Virus record (IMG/VR): IMGVR_UViG_3300025133_000699
Location: 1 to 21,328 of that record
Length of the DNA: 21,328 nt
Origin: a virus
Direction: 5' to 3' (one strand)
Below, piece by piece: positions 2,280 through 14,002 of this stretch. A program made the translations under genes and the position numbers. Positions within the stretch are counted from its first letter, which is position 1. Every line of letters begins with the position of its first letter. Under the pieces are notes generated by a model. It made no database searches, had not been told where the DNA came from, and saw only the letters and a list, made by a program, of their open reading frames with translations.

Positions 2280-2768
2280 ATGGCAGTATTAGATCCCAAT
2301 GAAATATTTTTCACAGCGTTTGAACCTAAACAACAAAACAGATTTATCCTTTATGTTGATGGAATCCCAAGTTATATAATCAAAAAGGTAAGCGGTATAA
2401 AAGTTACCCAAGAGGAAGTAGTCCTTAATCACATTAATGTGCAAAGAAAAGTTAAAGGTAGATCTAAATGGGATGATGTAACTTTATCACTTTATGATCC
2501 AATTACTCCTTCAGGAGCTCAAGCTGTAATGGAATGGGTAAGATTACACCATGAATCAGTAACAGGTAGAGATGGTTATTCTGATTTTTATAAGAAAGAT
2601 CTTACTTTAGATGTTCTAGGACCTGTAGGTGATATAGTATCAGAATGGGTATTAAAAGGAGCATGGATTAAAGATGCAAATTTTGGTGATTATGATTGGG
2701 ACCAAGCAGCTACTGCACAAAGTATAGAATTAACATTAGGTATTGATTACGCTGTATTAAATTTCTAA
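2280..2768 (+). CDS. gp19: Tail tube protein (gp19-like)
   Basis: This 162-aa protein belongs to the T4 gp19 / contractile tail tube family, whose hexamers stack to form the inner tube. Matching features are the NRFILYVDGIPSYIIKKVSG segment near residues 20-40, the following VLNHINVQRKVKGRSKWDDVTLSLYDP strand pair, a central helix (PSGAQAVMEWVRLHHE), and the terminal strands DVLGPVGDIVSEWVLKGAWI and QSIELTLGIDYAVL. Length is that of the family (T4 gp19 is 163 aa). It directly follows the sheath gene, the standard order, and is followed by an intrinsic terminator. Confidence 0.95.
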   Translation: MAVLDPNEIFFTAFEPKQQNRFILYVDGIPSYIIKKVSGIKVTQEEVVLNHINVQRKVKGRSKWDDVTLSLYDPITPSGAQAVMEWVRLHHESVTGRDGYSDFYKKDLTLDVLGPVGDIVSEWVLKGAWIKDANFGDYDWDQAATAQSIELTLGIDYAVLNF

Positions 2769-2791: not shown

Positions 2792-2824
2792 AAAGAGAGT
2801 TTGGCTATGTCAAACTCTTTTTTT
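2792..2824 (+). terminator. Intrinsic terminator after the tail tube gene
   Basis: A hairpin is formed by GAGTTTG (2797-2803) and CAAACTC (2811-2817) around a 7-nt loop. The stem can extend through flanking AAAG/CTTT with a small bulge, and a T run follows (2818-2824). It lies 24 nt after the tube stop codon. It would separate abundant sheath/tube transcription from the chaperone cassette downstream. The upstream stem also contains TTTGGCT, a motif seen in the replication promoters, but no convincing -7 element follows at the right distance. Confidence 0.8.
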
Positions 2825-2870: not shown

Positions 2871-3614
2871 ATGGAACAAAAACAATTAAAATTCCCCTCA
2901 GAAGAAGTGGAATTACCATCAAAGGGTTTATTATACCCTAAAGAAAATCCCTTATCCAGTGGTAAAATAGAAATGAAATATATGACCGCCAGAGAAGAGG
3001 ATATTCTAACAAATCAAAATTACATCAAAAATGGAACAGTAATAGATAAGTTATTACAATCCCTCATTTTGTCTAAAATCAATTTTGCAGATTTACTCAT
3101 AGGTGATAAAAATGCCATAATGATAGCTGCTAGGGTTTTGGGATATGGTAAGGATTACACATTTGACTATAAAGGTGAAGAAGTTAATATTGATTTGTCT
3201 ACTTTAGAACCTGTTGATTTTGATGATGATGAGATTAAAGATGGGAAAAATGAATTTTTCTATACCTTACCTAAAACAGGAGCACAAATAAGTTATAAAT
3301 ATTTAACCCATAGGGATGAGGTTAAAATAACCAATGAATTGAAAGGTCTTAAAAAGATTAACAAACATGCAAACCCCGAACTAACTACAAGATTAAAATT
3401 TATGATATTATCAGTAAATGGTAGTTATGAACAAAAAGACATAAGGGATTTTGTTGATAATTATTTCCTAGCTATGGATTCTAGATCATTTAGGGAGCAT
3501 GTAAGTAGAAAACAACCAGATGTTCGATTAGAATTTAATCATGATGGAGAAGATGGCTTTGAGGAGGGAGTTAGAATCCCTATAGGGGTAAACTTTTTTT
3601 GGCCTGACGCCTAA
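2871..3614 (+). CDS. gp26: gp26-like baseplate/tail assembly chaperone
   Basis: This 247-aa protein resembles the T4 gp26 baseplate-hub assembly family. The N-terminal signature VELPSKGLLYPKENPLSSGKIEMKYMTAREEDILTNQNYIKNGTVIDKLL is spread over residues 13-62 and is followed by ALIxRxxGYGxxY-like helices (residues 84-98). The C-terminus reads IPIGVNFFWPDA. The gene lies immediately upstream of the tape measure gene, the position occupied by lambda G-type tail assembly chaperones. A second frame without any start codon overlaps its 3' end, and a run of seven T's (3594-3600) lies at the overlap. A fraction of ribosomes may therefore extend this protein into a product of about 324 aa. Family recognition is firm; the exact role (hub assembly versus tube assembly chaperone) is inferred. 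Confidence 0.85.
   Translation: MEQKQLKFPSEEVELPSKGLLYPKENPLSSGKIEMKYMTAREEDILTNQNYIKNGTVIDKLLQSLILSKINFADLLIGDKNAIMIAARVLGYGKDYTFDYKGEEVNIDLSTLEPVDFDDDEIKDGKNEFFYTLPKTGAQISYKYLTHRDEVKITNELKGLKKINKHANPELTTRLKFMILSVNGSYEQKDIRDFVDNYFLAMDSRSFREHVSRKQPDVRLEFNHDGEDGFEEGVRIPIGVNFFWPDA
3591..3602 (+). other. Candidate programmed frameshift site, T7 run
   Basis: The gp26 frame reads AAC TTT TTT TGG and then ends four codons later (CCT GAC GCC TAA). Slipping +1 (or -2) on the T7 run moves the ribosome into the open frame that continues to 3846. This frame relation is the one needed to join the two ORFs. A one-base homopolymer sequencing error would give the same picture and cannot be excluded from the sequence alone. 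Confidence 0.6.
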
Positions 3615-3846
3615 ATATAGGGTTGCGTTATTTACCCAAATCCATGAAATAATATTTTATGGTAAGGGGGGTTATAATTATGATACTATTTATAATTTCC
3701 CAATATGGTTAAGAAATTTCACCTATAAAAAAATTAATGACCATTATGAAAAAGAAAATGAAGAGGTAAACAGATCAAGGGGGATATCTAACAGTAAAGA
3801 TATTAATATTCCTTCATTTGCCAAAAAAACTACAAGGGCATCCTAA
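3592..3846 (+). CDS. ATG-less gp51-like ORF, expressed by frameshift from gp26
   Basis: An 84-codon open frame starts after a stop at 3589-3591 and ends at TAA 3844-3846. It contains no ATG, GTG or TTG codon in frame, so ordinary initiation is unlikely. The translation is clearly protein-like: LFTQIHEIIFYGKGGYNYDT, then IYNFPIWLRNFTYKKINDHY, then a charged helix EKENEEVNRSRG and a basic tail. The IHEI...GGY...xxPIWLRNF pattern is what I associate with the small protein next to gp26 in T4-like phages (gp51, hub assembly catalyst), and with the T half of G/GT tail chaperones. Joined to gp26 at the T7 run it gives about 324 residues. It ends inside the loop of an intrinsic terminator and is followed by the tape measure gene. 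The frameshift mechanism and gp51 homology are inference; the coding character is seen directly. Confidence 0.7.
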   Translation, partial: TFFGLTPKYRVALFTQIHEIIFYGKGGYNYDTIYNFPIWLRNFTYKKINDHYEKENEEVNRSRGISNSKDINIPSFAKKTTRAS

Positions 3847-3868
3847 TGGGTGCTCTTTATTATTTTTT
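3834..3868 (+). terminator. Intrinsic terminator after the chaperone cassette
   Basis: The stem AAGGGCATCC (3834-3843) pairs with GGGTGCTCTT (3848-3857), including two G-U pairs, around a TAAT loop, and a T-rich run follows to 3868. The stop codon of the frameshifted ORF (3844-3846) lies exactly in the loop, so the cassette's coding end and transcription end coincide. This supports the ORF being a real gene end. Confidence 0.75.
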
Positions 3869-3900: not shown

Positions 3901-6900
3901 ATGCCTTTATTTGATAATTTAGACGACGCAAAAAAACACATTCAAAAACTGAACAAGGAAATTAAAGACCTTGGGAGTGTGGGTTTTAGGGATGTTGATA
4001 AAGCCATCAAAAATATGGGTGAGGGTCTTGAGGGAGCAAATGAAGTTATAGCAACCCTTAATGCTAGAATCGAAACCCAAAAAAATGATTGGAAAAGTGT
4101 TAATTCTATAGTAGCGAATATTCAAGAAGAATTAGGCAAATCAAATCAAATCCTTAATAAATCTAGAGGGGCTTTTAAATCAATCCAATCTCTATCCCAA
4201 GATTTACTTTCAGATGAAGAAGGTATCGTAAAGTTATCAGAAAAAGATTTAACTAAAAAAATAGCAAAAGCAGAACAGGCAAAACTTATTGTTAAAGAAC
4301 AAGCAAGATTAATAAGACTTCAGGGGAAAACAAAAAAACAACTTACAGAAGAAGAAAAAGAAATATTAGGGCAAGTTGATGCAATGGAAAATAAAAAATC
4401 CGTAATGGATGATGCCATTAAAGCAATGAAAAAAAGACTTGATCAGGAAAAAAACATAAACAAATCTTTAGGGGTAGGGGGTAATTTATTAAAAGCATCG
4501 GGAGAACTTTTGGATAAAATGGGTCTGGGGGCCCTTAAAAGTGTTGTTAATTTTGATAAGATTAATGATGAGTTAAGGACCATGACTGAAGAAGCAACTA
4601 AAAATGGTGATGAGATATTGGGTTGGGGAGGAAAACTTAAAATAGCTGCAAAGGGGGCTAAAATGATGGGGGGAGATCTTCTTAAAGCCTTCACAGACCC
4701 CTCAGTTATGATAGGTAAAATTATTGAAGGAATGTTTGCTGTCAATAAGGCCCAAACTGAATTTGGTAAAGAAACAGGAAGAAATATAAATACTTGGGAT
4801 ACCCTTAATTTTAGAATGGGTGTAGATTCTGTGGACTATATAAAAGCTGCTACAGAACTTACAAAGGAATTAGGGGTAGCAGCAGATGCAGTATTTGAAC
4901 CTGAGGATATAGCAGAAGCAGCAGAATTTACAAACCATATTGGTCTAGCATCTAAAGAAACAGCTAATTTAGCTAAATTTTCCAAACTTAATAGTCAATC
5001 ACTTGAGCAGACTGGGGATAATGTTGTAAACATGACCAATGAATATATTAAGGGCAATAAGGCAGCTATAAATCAGAAGAAAGTTTTAAGTGATGTAGGT
5101 AATGTATCTGATTCATTAGCCGCCTCTTTAGGGGCTTCTCCTGAAAAAATAGCAGAAGCGGCAATAGCAGCTCAAGCTTTGGGTCTTAGTTTACAAGAAG
5201 TAGATGGCATAGCAAGTAGTCTCTTAAATATTGAAAGCTCCATTGAAAAAGAAATGGAAGCTGAGGTTCTTTTGGGTAAAGAATTAAACTTAGAAAAAGC
5301 TAGAACAGCAGCACTAAATAATGATCATGCAACTTTATCCGAAGAAATTAAAAACCAAGTAGGGGGACTTCATGAGTTCTCCCAAATGAATAGGTTAGAA
5401 CAGGAGGCTATGGCAGAAGCTATGGGAATGAATAGAGACCAATTAGCCAAAACTATAATGCAACAAGAAATATCAGCAGGAATGTCTGAGGAACAAGCAG
5501 CCAAATTAGCAGGGGTAAATTTAGAAGATTTTAAAAGACAAGAAACTCAAGAAAAAATAGCTAAGGCATTAGATAAAATAGCTCAAGCCTTTGCTCCTAT
5601 AATACAATTAGCAGGTTGGTTATTAAGTAAAACTTGGGTAATTTATACAACACTGATTTTAATAGCGGGTGTTAAATTATGGCAAAATGCCGAAAGATTG
5701 GGGGCCGCTTGGAAATCAATCTCAAAAGGAGTATTGGGGGCAGGTAAAGGAATAAGTTCGTTTTTCACTTCTGCAGAAGGGGGTTTTAAGAAAATTACAG
5801 GTGCCGCTAAATCTTTTTCAGATAGATTTAAAAAGGGAATGATTGGTGGAGGTAAGGGAGGTAACGTGGCAAAAAAAGTACTTACAAAAGATAGTTCTAA
5901 AGCATTAGGGGAAACAGCAAAAAATACTAAGGGAATGTCTGCAAAAAAAGGAGCGGGAATTGGTGGTTTTTTAAAGGGTTTAGGTGAAGGTCTATCATCA
6001 GTGGGGAGAAAGTTTGTTGATGTTATAAAAGGGGGCCTTGCATTAGGAATTGTTGGTGTTTTATTAGGGGGTTCTTTTGCTCTATCTATGATGATGTTAA
6101 AAGATGTTGATCCTGTACAAATGATCGCTTTTGCAGGTTCCTTAGCTATATTAGGTATCACAATGGCCCTATTAGGTAATTTTGGTGGAAATATCATTAT
6201 GGGGGCAATAGCAATGGGAATATTAGCTTTAGCCTTAATACCCGCAGCCTATGCCTTTAGTTTATTATCTGAAGTAGATCCTGGTCAAATGTTTTCTTTC
6301 GCCATAGCTTTACCTTTATTAGCTTTAGCGGCTGCAGGTTTGGGTTTTTTATTCCCTTTCATAGCGGCAGGAGCTGCTGCCCTAGCAATATTAGGTATGG
6401 GTTTAATGGCTTTTGCTGTTGGAGCAGCAATTGCCATGTCTTTAACCCCCAATTTAGAAACTTTTGTAAGTCAACTCCAATTATTTGCTGACGCCTCTTT
6501 AATAGCTTCATTATATGCAATTGGCCCTGCTTTATTAGTGGCAGGAGCAGGAATATTAGCATTTCAAACCCTGTTAGCTGTGGGGAGTGTGGCAGGAGCA
6601 GTTGGTGGTTTCTTTTCAAGTTTATTTGGAGGAGAATCTGATCCTTTAGCTCCTATTAAAACTTTGGCAGCATTAGCCCCAGCTCTACAAATAGCTGGAG
6701 ACGCCATAAGTAGTATATCCTCTAATATAGTAGGTTTAAGTAGTGCAATAGAGACCTTAGATTTAGAAAAATTAAGTGAATTAAAAAACTTAGCATTTTG
6801 GGCAGCCATAGGGGGACCAATGATGATGATGGGAGCTTTAATGGCAGCACCCCTTCTAACATTAGGAGAACAAATGTCTTTAGGTTCAAGTGAAGGGGAT

Positions 6901-7029
6901 GGAACAGCCAAAAAATTAGATAAAATAACAGAGGTACTTGAAGAAATTTTAAATAAAGAAGGAGTAGTTATGTTAGACAGTGATAAAGTGGGGATAGCTA
7001 TGACTAAAGGAGAATATAAGCTTCAATAA
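3901..7029 (+). CDS. Tail tape measure protein
   Basis: This 1042-aa protein would set tail length and lie inside the tube before ejection. Residues 1-200 are mostly long charged helices (coiled-coil-like, rich in Lys, Glu, Gln). The middle (about 205-560) is helical and Ala/Glu-rich. A hydrophobic segment occurs at about 563-595, and a long stretch at about 710-895 contains several membrane-type helices. Within it the pattern VDPxQMxxFAxxLxxL recurs (Asp at 737 and 793, 56 residues apart), with a weaker third copy (LTPNLETFVSQLQLF). The C-terminus returns to a soluble helix ending in VVMLDSDKVGIAMTKGEYKLQ. Size, hydrophobic core and position directly after the chaperone cassette identify it. 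T4 gp29 is shorter (about 590 aa), so a longer tail is expected. Confidence 0.93.
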   Translation: MPLFDNLDDAKKHIQKLNKEIKDLGSVGFRDVDKAIKNMGEGLEGANEVIATLNARIETQKNDWKSVNSIVANIQEELGKSNQILNKSRGAFKSIQSLSQDLLSDEEGIVKLSEKDLTKKIAKAEQAKLIVKEQARLIRLQGKTKKQLTEEEKEILGQVDAMENKKSVMDDAIKAMKKRLDQEKNINKSLGVGGNLLKASGELLDKMGLGALKSVVNFDKINDELRTMTEEATKNGDEILGWGGKLKIAAKGAKMMGGDLLKAFTDPSVMIGKIIEGMFAVNKAQTEFGKETGRNINTWDTLNFRMGVDSVDYIKAATELTKELGVAADAVFEPEDIAEAAEFTNHIGLASKETANLAKFSKLNSQSLEQTGDNVVNMTNEYIKGNKAAINQKKVLSDVGNVSDSLAASLGASPEKIAEAAIAAQALGLSLQEVDGIASSLLNIESSIEKEMEAEVLLGKELNLEKARTAALNNDHATLSEEIKNQVGGLHEFSQMNRLEQEAMAEAMGMNRDQLAKTIMQQEISAGMSEEQAAKLAGVNLEDFKRQETQEKIAKALDKIAQAFAPIIQLAGWLLSKTWVIYTTLILIAGVKLWQNAERLGAAWKSISKGVLGAGKGISSFFTSAEGGFKKITGAAKSFSDRFKKGMIGGGKGGNVAKKVLTKDSSKALGETAKNTKGMSAKKGAGIGGFLKGLGEGLSSVGRKFVDVIKGGLALGIVGVLLGGSFALSMMMLKDVDPVQMIAFAGSLAILGITMALLGNFGGNIIMGAIAMGILALALIPAAYAFSLLSEVDPGQMFSFAIALPLLALAAAGLGFLFPFIAAGAAALAILGMGLMAFAVGAAIAMSLTPNLETFVSQLQLFADASLIASLYAIGPALLVAGAGILAFQTLLAVGSVAGAVGGFFSSLFGGESDPLAPIKTLAALAPALQIAGDAISSISSNIVGLSSAIETLDLEKLSELKNLAFWAAIGGPMMMMGALMAAPLLTLGEQMSLGSSEGDGTAKKLDKITEVLEEILNKEGVVMLDSDKVGIAMTKGEYKLQ

Positions 7030-9528: not shown

Positions 9529-9831
9529 ATGGGAAGATATTCAAATAATAAATTTTTATTCACTAAAAATAAAAACAGGTATTATAGTACTACAAGATAT
9601 CCTGAAGTCCCCAGAAGGAATGATGATATTTACATTATATCTACTGATGGGGATAGATATGATACTTTAGCTCTACAATATTATTCAAATCCTGATTTAT
9701 GGTGGATAATATCTATATGTAACGCTTCACATACTCAAAATTCACTAATTCCCCCATTAGGGGTTCAAATTAGAATCCCCTCAAACCCACAAATAGTTAT
9801 AGACCAATTTAATACTTTAAATAATGAGTAG
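9529..9831 (+). CDS. gp53-like LysM-type baseplate protein
   Basis: This 100-aa protein has a LysM-like core at about residues 31-85: DGDRYDTLALQYYSNPDLWW, IISICNAS, then PPLGVQIRIPSN. The order (time/turn, Leu-Ala-Tyr helix, xNPDLWWxIxxxN, then PPGxxxxIP) is that of the small LysM-fold proteins of contractile tails such as T4 gp53 (wedge) and gpX types, which bind baseplate partners rather than peptidoglycan. It starts 6 nt after the preceding gene and its last 8 nt overlap the start of the hub gene, suggesting translational coupling. Whether it corresponds to gp53 or to a tube/hub adaptor is not decidable from sequence alone. Confidence 0.8.
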   Translation: MGRYSNNKFLFTKNKNRYYSTTRYPEVPRRNDDIYIISTDGDRYDTLALQYYSNPDLWWIISICNASHTQNSLIPPLGVQIRIPSNPQIVIDQFNTLNNE

Positions 9832-12800
9832 TAATTTAACAGGGGAAAATTTCCCCGAGTATGTACAAAAACAAATATCAAAGAGGCAAGAATTAATGGC
9901 TGAGGGGTTTGTTAATGACCAACATAATATTTTAGAAAATTCCAAATCAAAAGAAAAACAAAAATTTTTTGATAACAACCAGGGATTTATAAATGTTGTG
10001 TCATGTATAAATTTAGATATTCAAAAAATAAAAGATAAGAATAAAGAAGCTGGTTTAGAAAGTATTTTTGATAGTTATGAATTAGGTGGAAATACTTTAG
10101 CTAAAAATTTCATTTTAAAAGGGGGGGTTTCAAGTGACAAAAAAGGCACATCTAGCTTTAGAAGAGGGATTAGAGATGGGGCGGATACAGGCCTTATTAA
10201 TGATTCTGCTTATGGGATAGGAAATCTTCAAAAATATGGGCAAAAACCAATGCCCTCTTTAGAGAATATGGAAGTAAAAAGCAAAAATAGAGGTTCATTA
10301 AGAGAAGCAACTTTAAAAATAAAAGCCTTTAGTACTGAAGATTTTAAAGTTATTGATGCTCTTTACATGAGATTGGGTTATAATATTTTTGTTGAATGGG
10401 GTCATGCTTTTTTATTAAATAATGAAGGGAAAGTTGAGGGAAATGGGAACTCTTTAATGGATTTAATATTAAAAGAAGATAACAAAACCACAGATCTTTA
10501 TAAAGAAATAGAAGAAAAAAGATTAAAAAGTGATGGTAATTATGATGCTTTTTTAGGTAAAATAAAAAACTATAGTTGGTCAATGTCGTCAGATGGGGTT
10601 TATGATATTGATTTAAATATTATAAGCGCTGGAGATGTAATTGAATCATTAAAAATTAATACACAAGAACTTCAAACCAAAGGCCTCTCATCTGCGGAAA
10701 AAGAGGAAATCCAGGATTACAAAAAGACATTAAAAGATACAAAAGAAAAGGCAAAAGAGAAAGGTTATGTAGCGGCAGAAGCAGAAGATTCTGATGTATC
10801 TATATGGTCTAAAAGGGCAGAAAGTGATATAAATTGGTTTCTTTATAGAGTAGCTACTCTCAAAGGAGGAGACGATGCCTGGTTTTCAGATGTAAGATCC
10901 CCCGATACATGGAGGGCAACCGAACCTGGGGACGGAGCAAGACAGCCCCCTGTAGTAATAAGCAAAAAACCAATATTTGCTTGGCCATCAGTAACAAAAC
11001 CTATAAGGTATAGAGAAACATCGGATGTTGTATATTTAGATTTTGAAGATGTAGGTTCTACTACTAATAATTACTATATAAGATTAGGGGCATTTTTGGA
11101 ATTTATTGAACAAGTTTGTATGTTATATGAAGCTGATGAAAATGGTAAAATTTTAGAAGAACTTAGAATTTGTAGTGATGGGAAAGTAAGGATGAGAAAG
11201 AAACCTATAGTTAGAATATCTTACAATCCCCATTCAAATTTTTGTTTCACAACCCCCTTCCATATATCAGCAGATCCTAGAGTGTGTGTTTTATCCAAAA
11301 TGGTTAAAGTTGGCCAGTTTACTGCCCCCCCTGGTATGGAAGAAGTTTGGGAGGATTTAGAGAATGATAATGGTACAGTTGGGGGTTATTGGAAAAAACT
11401 TTACCCTAATTTAAATTCCTTTGACTACCCACAGATAATTAGACCAGAGGCAGTGGGGGATGAAATATCAAAAACCCAAGAGAAAGATACATCAATACCT
11501 CATGGAAAAATAATGAATATTTATGTAAGTTTTATAGAAATAATGAAATCCCTAGATAGTGCTACCACCAAAAATGAGGATGATACTAGTACAACCAACT
11601 TATATGATTTTTTAGCAATGATTTTAAAAGATATCTCCCATGCCACAGGAAATATTAATGATTTCCAATTGGTTTTAGACCCTGACACCAATTTTTTAAA
11701 AATAATTGACGCCACTAGAATTGAGGGTTATGGTACAATTGCAAAGGAATTGAATGAAGCTATGGGGAATAAAGAAATCTCAGTTGCTAAGTTTGCAATT
11801 AAAGATAATATTTTAAATAATAACAAAAAATTCGAATCTCCTATAATAACTGATTTTTCAATAAAAACAGAAATGTCAAGTAAAATGGCTACCACAATTA
11901 CAGTGGGAGCCCAAGACCCTGAAGGTGCAACTGGAAAAGGTATGGGGATTGCTAACTTAAATCATGGGTTTAAAAACAGAATAGTAAAAAATATACTTAA
12001 ATCAAGTGGAAAAACAACCACAGGAACAACCCCCGAAGAAAAATTTTCAAGTAATTTAACCGACTATAATACTTTTTTAGAATCCCAAATAGATACTGAG
12101 GGAAGTACAATGTGGAGTTGGTTTTGGGATGATGATAGTTATTGGGATGAATCTTTATTTGATTCAACACGTTCTCTTCTAAATGGTTTTTTATCCTTTG
12201 CCATAGCCCAAGAAGCAAAGAAAAGTAAAACTGATAACCCCCAAATAGGGTTTATTCCTATAAACCTTTCATTAACATTCCCAGGAATATCTGGTATTAA
12301 AATATATAATAAATTTACAATAGATTCAAAATTCTTACCTACTAATTATGGTTCTTCTTTAACTTTTCTAGTAAGAGGGGTTTCTCATTCTTTTAGTGGT
12401 GATAAATGGGAAACTAAAATTGAAAGTTTATCAATACCCTCAAAAGTAGCAAAAGGGAATAAAATCCTCCCAACAAAAGTATTAGAACCTGGCCCAATTT
12501 CAAAACAAAAACAAAATATCACACCCCCTACTGAGGATATAGCTCTTGCCCAAAATCTAAAACTAGGGGAAGGAATAGGTGATGGAGAACTATTAACTAT
12601 TACCTCAGGTTTACCTATGACATCAACAAAAGATGGTAAATCTTATGAAATAGATAAAATAAAAAGAGGTAATAGTCCTATAAACAGAATATGGTTACAC
12701 CACACAGCAGGATGGGATAAAAGAAAGGGAACAATCTCTAGTTGGACACGAAGGGTATGTTCTGACGCCACAGGTAAAGTCCATACTCCTTTTATTATAG

Positions 12801-14002
12801 GTAGATCACTCCCTGAGGGTTTTAGTGGGGGGAGTACTAAATATTCAACTCTTATTGAACAATTATATGATGAAGAGGAATATACGGGGTGGGCCAGTAG
12901 TACAGGAACATCAGGGGATAAAGGAACTGTAAATATTGAACTAGCAGGGTTAGGGTATATAAAAGGGGGACCTAGAAAAAACAAAAAAGTAGCCGAAATG
13001 AAGGGGTTGGACCCCGATACGGATTTATATTATTCATGGGCATCAAGATCAAAAGATGGGGAGGGGATATTCCAAGAAAATGAAATTGCAAAACCTGTAG
13101 ACAAGGACCTTAAAGAACTTCCATCATGGCAAGGCCATGAGTATTGGGTAAAATATCCACCAGAACAAATAAAGGCCACAGAAGAATTATTAATTGCACT
13201 AATAAGAAAATATAATGGTGATGCCCCTAGTAAAAAGGGTATAAAACATAATGTTATTCCTGATGATAATGTGTTTTTTAAATGGGATAATGTTTTTGGA
13301 CCCCCCATACCCTCTTCAAAAATAAGATCATCAAGAGGAGTTTTTGGTCATAGATTAAGTTCCAATAAAAGCGATATATGGCCTCAAAAAGAAATGGTAG
13401 AGATGTTAATGAATGTTCAAGCAAAAGCAGAAGGTAAGCACACACCCCCAAGCACATTCCCCTCAACACCTCCTACTCCCCAGGAAGCTTCGGGTAAGGA
13501 TGTCAGGTTAGGTGTAAAAATTTGGAGGGAATTCCAAAAGGTATTAATTCAAGAGGATAGTTATGGGGATAAAGGTAGTCCTTTATTGTCCCCTCAAGGT
13601 CAGGGGGGTGTTAATAAAAACACAACAATTAAATTATTAGAGGATTTCATTAGATATCGTCCCTACGATAAGAATAGAGATGAGAAACTGTCTCCAACCT
13701 CTGAGGCTTTTGATAAATGGGGGGATGTTACAGATAACAATGGAATATGGAAAGGAACGGGGAAAAAAATTCTCAATACCCTCCCTTTTTCTTCATTACA
13801 GTTAGAAAACATAGAGATCCAACCCATTAAGGAGGGTCCAATATATACTAGATATAGTCCCTCACATGAAAAATTTAACAAAATATTTGAGGGTATTGTT
13901 AAGGCTATAGATGAGGGTAAATCAACATACTTGGTAGATTGGTACCAACAAGAGGGTTTAAGTGGGGGGGCTGATATATCCCTAAACCTTCCATCCTTTT
14001 AA
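9824..14002 (+). CDS. Giant baseplate hub protein with C-terminal zinc amidase
   Basis: This is a 1392-aa multidomain protein. The N-terminal part (about 130-560), including LREATLKIKAFSTEDFKVID, ALYMRLGYNIFVEWGH and FITDFSIKTEMSSKMATT-like strands further on, resembles hub proteins of large marine/Bacteroidota myophages, analogous to T4 gp27. Residues about 950-1190 form an N-acetylmuramoyl-L-alanine amidase (amidase_2/T7 lysozyme/PGRP fold). It starts with WLHHTAG (zinc ligand H959) and contains NIELAGLGY. It ends with VFGHRLSSNKSDIWP, giving H1176 and D1184 as the other ligands and K1182 at the catalytic Lys position of T7 lysozyme. A Pro/Thr-rich linker (about 1203-1225) leads to a C-terminal 165 residues I do not recognise. 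The enzyme would cut peptidoglycan during injection, replacing the gp5 lysozyme of T4. The two-His spacing (217 residues) is long, implying inserts. Confidence 0.85.
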   Translation: MSSNLTGENFPEYVQKQISKRQELMAEGFVNDQHNILENSKSKEKQKFFDNNQGFINVVSCINLDIQKIKDKNKEAGLESIFDSYELGGNTLAKNFILKGGVSSDKKGTSSFRRGIRDGADTGLINDSAYGIGNLQKYGQKPMPSLENMEVKSKNRGSLREATLKIKAFSTEDFKVIDALYMRLGYNIFVEWGHAFLLNNEGKVEGNGNSLMDLILKEDNKTTDLYKEIEEKRLKSDGNYDAFLGKIKNYSWSMSSDGVYDIDLNIISAGDVIESLKINTQELQTKGLSSAEKEEIQDYKKTLKDTKEKAKEKGYVAAEAEDSDVSIWSKRAESDINWFLYRVATLKGGDDAWFSDVRSPDTWRATEPGDGARQPPVVISKKPIFAWPSVTKPIRYRETSDVVYLDFEDVGSTTNNYYIRLGAFLEFIEQVCMLYEADENGKILEELRICSDGKVRMRKKPIVRISYNPHSNFCFTTPFHISADPRVCVLSKMVKVGQFTAPPGMEEVWEDLENDNGTVGGYWKKLYPNLNSFDYPQIIRPEAVGDEISKTQEKDTSIPHGKIMNIYVSFIEIMKSLDSATTKNEDDTSTTNLYDFLAMILKDISHATGNINDFQLVLDPDTNFLKIIDATRIEGYGTIAKELNEAMGNKEISVAKFAIKDNILNNNKKFESPIITDFSIKTEMSSKMATTITVGAQDPEGATGKGMGIANLNHGFKNRIVKNILKSSGKTTTGTTPEEKFSSNLTDYNTFLESQIDTEGSTMWSWFWDDDSYWDESLFDSTRSLLNGFLSFAIAQEAKKSKTDNPQIGFIPINLSLTFPGISGIKIYNKFTIDSKFLPTNYGSSLTFLVRGVSHSFSGDKWETKIESLSIPSKVAKGNKILPTKVLEPGPISKQKQNITPPTEDIALAQNLKLGEGIGDGELLTITSGLPMTSTKDGKSYEIDKIKRGNSPINRIWLHHTAGWDKRKGTISSWTRRVCSDATGKVHTPFIIGRSLPEGFSGGSTKYSTLIEQLYDEEEYTGWASSTGTSGDKGTVNIELAGLGYIKGGPRKNKKVAEMKGLDPDTDLYYSWASRSKDGEGIFQENEIAKPVDKDLKELPSWQGHEYWVKYPPEQIKATEELLIALIRKYNGDAPSKKGIKHNVIPDDNVFFKWDNVFGPPIPSSKIRSSRGVFGHRLSSNKSDIWPQKEMVEMLMNVQAKAEGKHTPPSTFPSTPPTPQEASGKDVRLGVKIWREFQKVLIQEDSYGDKGSPLLSPQGQGGVNKNTTIKLLEDFIRYRPYDKNRDEKLSPTSEAFDKWGDVTDNNGIWKGTGKKILNTLPFSSLQLENIEIQPIKEGPIYTRYSPSHEKFNKIFEGIVKAIDEGKSTYLVDWYQQEGLSGGADISLNLPSF

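Follow-up and report, generated by a model that had tools for sequence, protein, structure and literature searches.

A conserved candidate +1 frameshift site in gp26/gp51-type tail assembly chaperone genes of related phages

Known chaperone frameshifts and the layout of the locus

One comparable arrangement is that of phage lambda, in which a short tail assembly chaperone (gpG, 140 residues) and its frameshift-extended form (gpGT) are encoded upstream of the tape measure gene; lambda slips by −1, whereas the family described here has a +1 extension, and the two differ in site, direction and G size (247 against 140 residues). In long-tailed phages with such a pair, the G and GT products arise in a fixed ratio and do not enter the virion, G binding the tape measure protein and T the tube. 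In bacterial prfB (RF2), a +1 shift takes place at CUU UGA, where the P-site CUU slips onto UUU and the A-site codon begins with UG. The G/GT shift is regarded as conserved among long-tailed phages 'except T4' and exists in −1, −2 and +1 versions (PMC5009743, a 2016 review). No general motif is known for forward shifts, according to a 2024 tool paper (PMC10885494), and a 2025 paper (PMC12846349) refers to Vladimirov, Gautam and Davidson 2022 for −1 slippage at poly-T in the TAC-N genes of T4-like phages. Listeria phage PSA (+1), HSTV-2 (probable +1) and Mu (−2) reach the same frame as the locus studied here; going by their descriptions they are single cases, in contrast to the invariant, family-wide motif reported below.

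We analysed a window of 21,328 nt, positions 1 to 21,328 of virus record IMGVR_UViG_3300025133_000699 from IMG/VR, in which the following features were located:

2280..2768, + strand: tail tube gene (gp19-like; PHROG 4542 tail tube, E = 6.5e-27)
2792..2822, + strand: terminator-like hairpin, then a T run, 5' of the chaperone gene (RNA fold, −15 kcal/mol, z = −5.5)
2871..3614, + strand: gp26-like gene, unshifted product of 247 aa (G or TAC-N; PHROG 150 match)
2871..3846, + strand: predicted shifted product of 324 aa (GT or TAC-NC; translation with a one-base step)
3592..3846, + strand: +1-frame ORF without a start codon; T domain read from 3601, stop at 3844-3846
3594..3608, + strand: conserved slip cassette TTT TTT TGG CCT GAC (alignment of 35 representatives; 177 of 180 loci)
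3597..3599, + strand: proposed P-site codon within the cassette, with 3600 as the skipped base
3834..3857, + strand: terminator-like hairpin with the T-domain stop in its loop (RNA fold, z = −3.3)
3901..7029, + strand: tape measure protein gene (28% identity, E = 1e-64, to the immuto tape measure)

The chaperone gene thus lies between the tail tube and tape measure genes, the position of a G/GT pair; the tape measure protein has 1042 residues and is 28% identical to the annotated one of Flavobacterium phage immuto. The gp26-like ORF ends with the codons AAC TTT TTT TGG CCT GAC GCC TAA (stop at 3612-3614), and the T7 run (TTTTTTT, 3594-3600) is within its overlap with the second frame. A first-pass annotation of this DNA had described an 84-codon frame devoid of ATG, GTG and TTG that overlaps the end of gp26 at the T run, and this was borne out: no stop interrupts the +1 frame between 3592 and 3843, and it closes at TAA 3844-3846; the −1 frame closes immediately at GCC TGA. 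Translation with a one-base forward step yields 324 residues, the length anticipated for the fusion, and the stop falls, as had also been noted, exactly in the 4-nt loop (3844-3847) of the downstream hairpin. Since the gene is flanked by two terminator-like hairpins, it may be transcribed apart from the tube and tape measure genes. Elsewhere in the window, 9824-14002 encodes a 1392-residue protein with a weak amidase stretch (PF01510, E = 0.0036) near residues 950-1142.

Judged from the sequences, this single gp26/gp51-type gene most probably yields two proteins that share a start codon. Gene order, the conserved site, a coding T frame in +1, the lack of a conserved start and homology to cyanophage and T4 chaperones can be read from the sequences directly; that the ribosome slips, how often, by +1 and not by −2, and what the products bind, we infer as follows. 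Most ribosomes would translate 247 codons and stop, giving the gp26-like product, while some, with YUU in the P site and UGG awaited in the A site, would slip by +1 onto UUU and read on as GGC-CUG-ACG, giving a 324-residue protein with an added helical, gp51-like T domain. If the roles match those of lambda gpG and gpGT, the tape measure protein, whose gene follows directly, would be coated by the G part, and tube subunits would be brought in by the T part.

Conservation of the slip site and the second frame

In the 80 nearest IMG/VR loci, whose gp26-like proteins are 61-69% identical to that of the window, the second frame is in +1 and the site TTTYTTTGGCCTGA is present in 80/80, with TGG replaced by TAC in one. 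Among 35 representatives (<85% identical), nearly every base of the 15-nt block TTTYTTTGGCCTGAC is fixed regardless of codon position, and wobble variation follows frame 0 before the block and the +1 frame after it. We then considered a wider set of 180 loci with a +1 T frame, extending down to ~40% identity to the nearest query, and found the junction YTT / TGG or TAC / CCT in 177. The A-site codon after YTT is TGG in 174 of these and TAC in 3, followed by CCT in every case (177/177), and the codon preceding the P-site codon is TTT (160 loci), TTC (14) or CTT (3). Across these genes, proline is encoded by CCT in only ~36% of cases and phenylalanine by TTT in 76%; the constancy of these codons at the site is partly accounted for by dual coding. 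At 60% identity the set still separates into 17 clusters, and the motif is present in all but one of them (16), the exception being the split-gene locus L179. Such a site is also carried by four cultured Flavobacterium phage records and by Microcystis phage Mel-JY01, the same core (TTTTTTTGG) is found in Rhodothermus phage RM378, and the same site turned up in one MAG contig when genome contigs were scanned with the protein of the window. Retention of the slip run and frame relation in relatives had been proposed as a check on the first reading, and in these alignments it is far above chance.

The second frame also behaves as coding sequence. Across 136 distinct windows, no downstream stop occurs in the +1 frame, compared with 120 and 391 in the other two frames. 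Median dN/dS is 0.067 in the +1 T frame and 0.169 in the adjoining gp26 stretch, and the low value for the T frame indicates purifying selection on it. By these sequence criteria, the programmed frameshift is real and conserved.

Direction of the shift and other routes to the second frame

The −1 heptamer class (X XXY YYZ) of lambda and cyanophage gp26 does not describe this site: the extension is in +1, and the −1 frame ends after 2 codons in 141/177 loci. The first-pass annotation had left +1 and −2 side by side, correctly in that both lead to the same frame, but the two differ in how well the site allows them. In 177/177 loci a single tRNA could re-pair one base forward, from UUU or CUU onto UUU. 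A −2 slip, the accepted route in phage Mu (PMC5009743), would produce an identical fusion one residue longer, and TTT-TTT in most loci permits re-pairing two bases back. In the 14 loci with TTC-TTT-TGG, however, it would set Phe-tRNA on UCU with a middle-base mismatch, so that the variant TTCTTTTGG favours +1 over −2. Tandem re-pairing is not favoured either, since C or G stands four bases ahead of the P-site codon in 165/177. We consider a −2 slip unlikely; because forward re-pairing fits all 177 loci and −2 is poorly paired in the TTC-TTT class, the direction is very probably +1.

Less probable still is that the T domain is a separate protein, initiated at a non-standard codon or by ribosomes that reinitiate past the gp26 stop. 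Two loci (L179 and L184) show that a T gene with a start of its own can occur, and an in-frame ATG, GTG or TTG lies between the slip and the conserved block in 32/177 loci. Such a start is absent there in the other 145, 56 loci have none anywhere in the open stretch ahead of the conserved block, and no start for the T frame is conserved among the 177. We rejected the CTG two codons past the slip as a start, as it is CTA, CTT or CTC in 45 loci. Independent translation would also leave unexplained the invariant YTT-TGG-CCT extending back into gp26 and the FGL conserved directly at the slip. L179 and L184 serve as natural controls: past the gp26 stop, the T domain begins at an ATG as a gene apart, and the slip site is altered (TTTCTTGTATCC and TTCCTTTGGCCAGAT), as the frameshift model predicts.

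Homopolymers of seven are prone to error, but it is hardly credible that the T run was misread or misassembled, or that RNA polymerase slips on it; for the family, these explanations are ruled out by the variants TTTCTTTGG and TTCTTTTGG, which break the run: the 33 loci with TTTCTTT (19) or TTCTTTT (14) have a longest T run of 3 or 4 and keep the frame relation, and the 177 loci agree across many assemblies and cultured isolates, which likewise excludes for the family a true run of six or eight T's.

We found no general stimulator of the +1 shift. RNAalifold of 16 relatives gave −3.3 kcal/mol with almost no covariation for downstream RNA structure, the downstream 90 nt of the window fold no better than shuffles (z = −0.8), and a Shine-Dalgarno-like stimulator is absent in 144/177 loci. 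In contrast to prfB, the A-site codon here is a sense codon, UGG, a Shine-Dalgarno sequence is not conserved, and the extension would set a product ratio rather than serve autoregulation.

Relationship to gp26 and gp51 and diversity of the route

The reading as a G/GT chaperone, already put forward in the first-pass annotation, is supported by its place between tube and tape measure genes, by conservation and by homology. The gp26-like protein of the window matches PHROG 150 (baseplate hub, E = 6.5e-11) and scores 23.1 bits against Pfam T4_baseplate (PF12322), just under the cut-off of 24.5; relatives score above it (L149, 28.5 bits; L084, 57.5; L085, 100). Direct hhalign comparison of the G domain with T4 gp26 is weak. 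In T4, the PF12322 match spans the first ~200 residues of gp26 and likewise of gp51, which continues into a C-terminal extension. For the T domain, the present family aligns with the cyanophage T domain (hhalign 86%, E = 5e-6), which in turn aligns with the T4 gp51 C-terminus (97.8%, E = 9e-13), and 0/100 column-shuffled controls reached either score; the direct profile match of the present T domain to T4 gp51 is weak (3%). PHROG 634, named for gp51, is matched by the cyanophage T domain (E = 1.9e-27), by residues 147-246 of T4 gp51 (E = 1.2e-23) and, weakly, by 10/55 T domains of this family (best E = 0.003). The second ORF of the window, searched alone, has no Pfam or PHROGs match, and the T-domain profile has no PDB sequence match.

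Structure prediction was carried out on the G and T parts separately rather than on the 324-aa fusion. The T domain is predicted as three helices, and no fold match was found for the second ORF. The AF2 model of the gp26-like protein (pLDDT 92) has the HK97 tail assembly chaperone (2OB9) as its top PDB match (Foldseek probability 0.57), a likeness that is suggestive only, with Z only 5.1 and an rmsd of 5.5 over 82 residues. The T-domain alignment also showed that 13/55 T domains touch Pfam DUF6760 (best E = 0.0012), and we guess that this may connect them with the T domains of contractile injection systems.

Profile homology identifies the second frame as the C-terminal (T) domain of a tail assembly chaperone and relates it, through the cyanophage intermediate, to the extension that T4 gp51 carries at its C-terminus; gp51 being a gp26 paralogue, the unshifted product corresponds to gp26 and the shifted 324-residue product to gp51, and the T frame is the part that turns a gp26 into a gp51. 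The earlier label 'gp51-like' for the second ORF consequently holds for the extension and not for the whole of gp51, the first ~200 residues of which are gp26-like. In T4, gp26 and gp51 are indeed separate genes, as had been stated, and they are paralogous; only the gp51 extension is represented by the second frame here. An arrangement of T4 gp26 and gp51 as adjoining co-linear genes was ruled out, the two being divergent.

T4-like phages and cyanophages thus share with this family a homologous G domain (PF12322/PHROG 150 in gp26/gp51, TAC-N/TAC-NC) and a T domain (PHROG 634) just after gp26, and differ in how the long form is obtained. T4 has two paralogous genes in place of one gene and a shift. 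In the cyanophage-type set (81 loci: DSL-LC02 and 80 relatives, one running off its contig), the extension is in −1 in 80/80 and a canonical in-phase U UUU UUC is present in 79/80, as opposed to +1 at YUU-UGG-CCU. The combination of U UUU UUC and a −1 extension was also found in Agrobacterium Atu_ph07, Pseudomonas PA5oct, a 595-kb huge phage and L189, and +1 extensions in Bacillus SP-15, Listeria LIS04, Streptococcus GXN1 and Rhodothermus RM378. The T frame being −1 in L191, L193, L087, L189 and L195-L275, the predicted direction of the shift varies within one homologous family. In Streptococcus phage GXN1 (L086, about 4200), the proposed +1 site is UUC UUU CGU C, which resembles the influenza PA-X +1 site.

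Existing annotations of Flavobacterium phage immuto (L082, 3642-3752), Listeria LIS04 (L190) and SP-15 (L085, 4309-4428) miss the long form, the T frame being omitted or shortened to an ORF from an internal start. In S-PM2 (L282, 4191-4364), a 57-aa CDS called gp51 matches the T domain after gp26 (PHROG 634), not a whole gp51.

We do not claim the gp26/gp51 chaperone identity as new, because Vladimirov, Gautam and Davidson reportedly named the T4-like chaperone genes in 2022 (in Virology). What seems new is a class of +1 sites that share a fixed motif, with split-gene relatives as natural controls; neither this motif class, nor the Gram-positive +1 forms, nor the split-gene relatives were found in the literature searched, most subscription journals being outside its scope. 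On balance we lean towards YUU-UGG-CCU being a self-contained +1 cassette that works without Shine-Dalgarno or RNA structure in phages of Bacteroidota, Microcystis and Rhodothermus, with the route to the long form having switched between +1, −1, split genes and duplication (T4) within one homologous chaperone family.

Together with the 2022 chaperone paper, our data close the gap left by T4 as the exception to the G/GT frameshift. About 175 related phages keep the proposed forward-slip site, and with this family comes a class predicted to shift forward at a fixed motif, where no general one is known (PMC10885494). It also corrects the annotations of published phages (immuto, SP-15 and LIS04 among them) from which the long chaperone is missing, and allows +1, −1, split and duplicated solutions to be compared among homologues.
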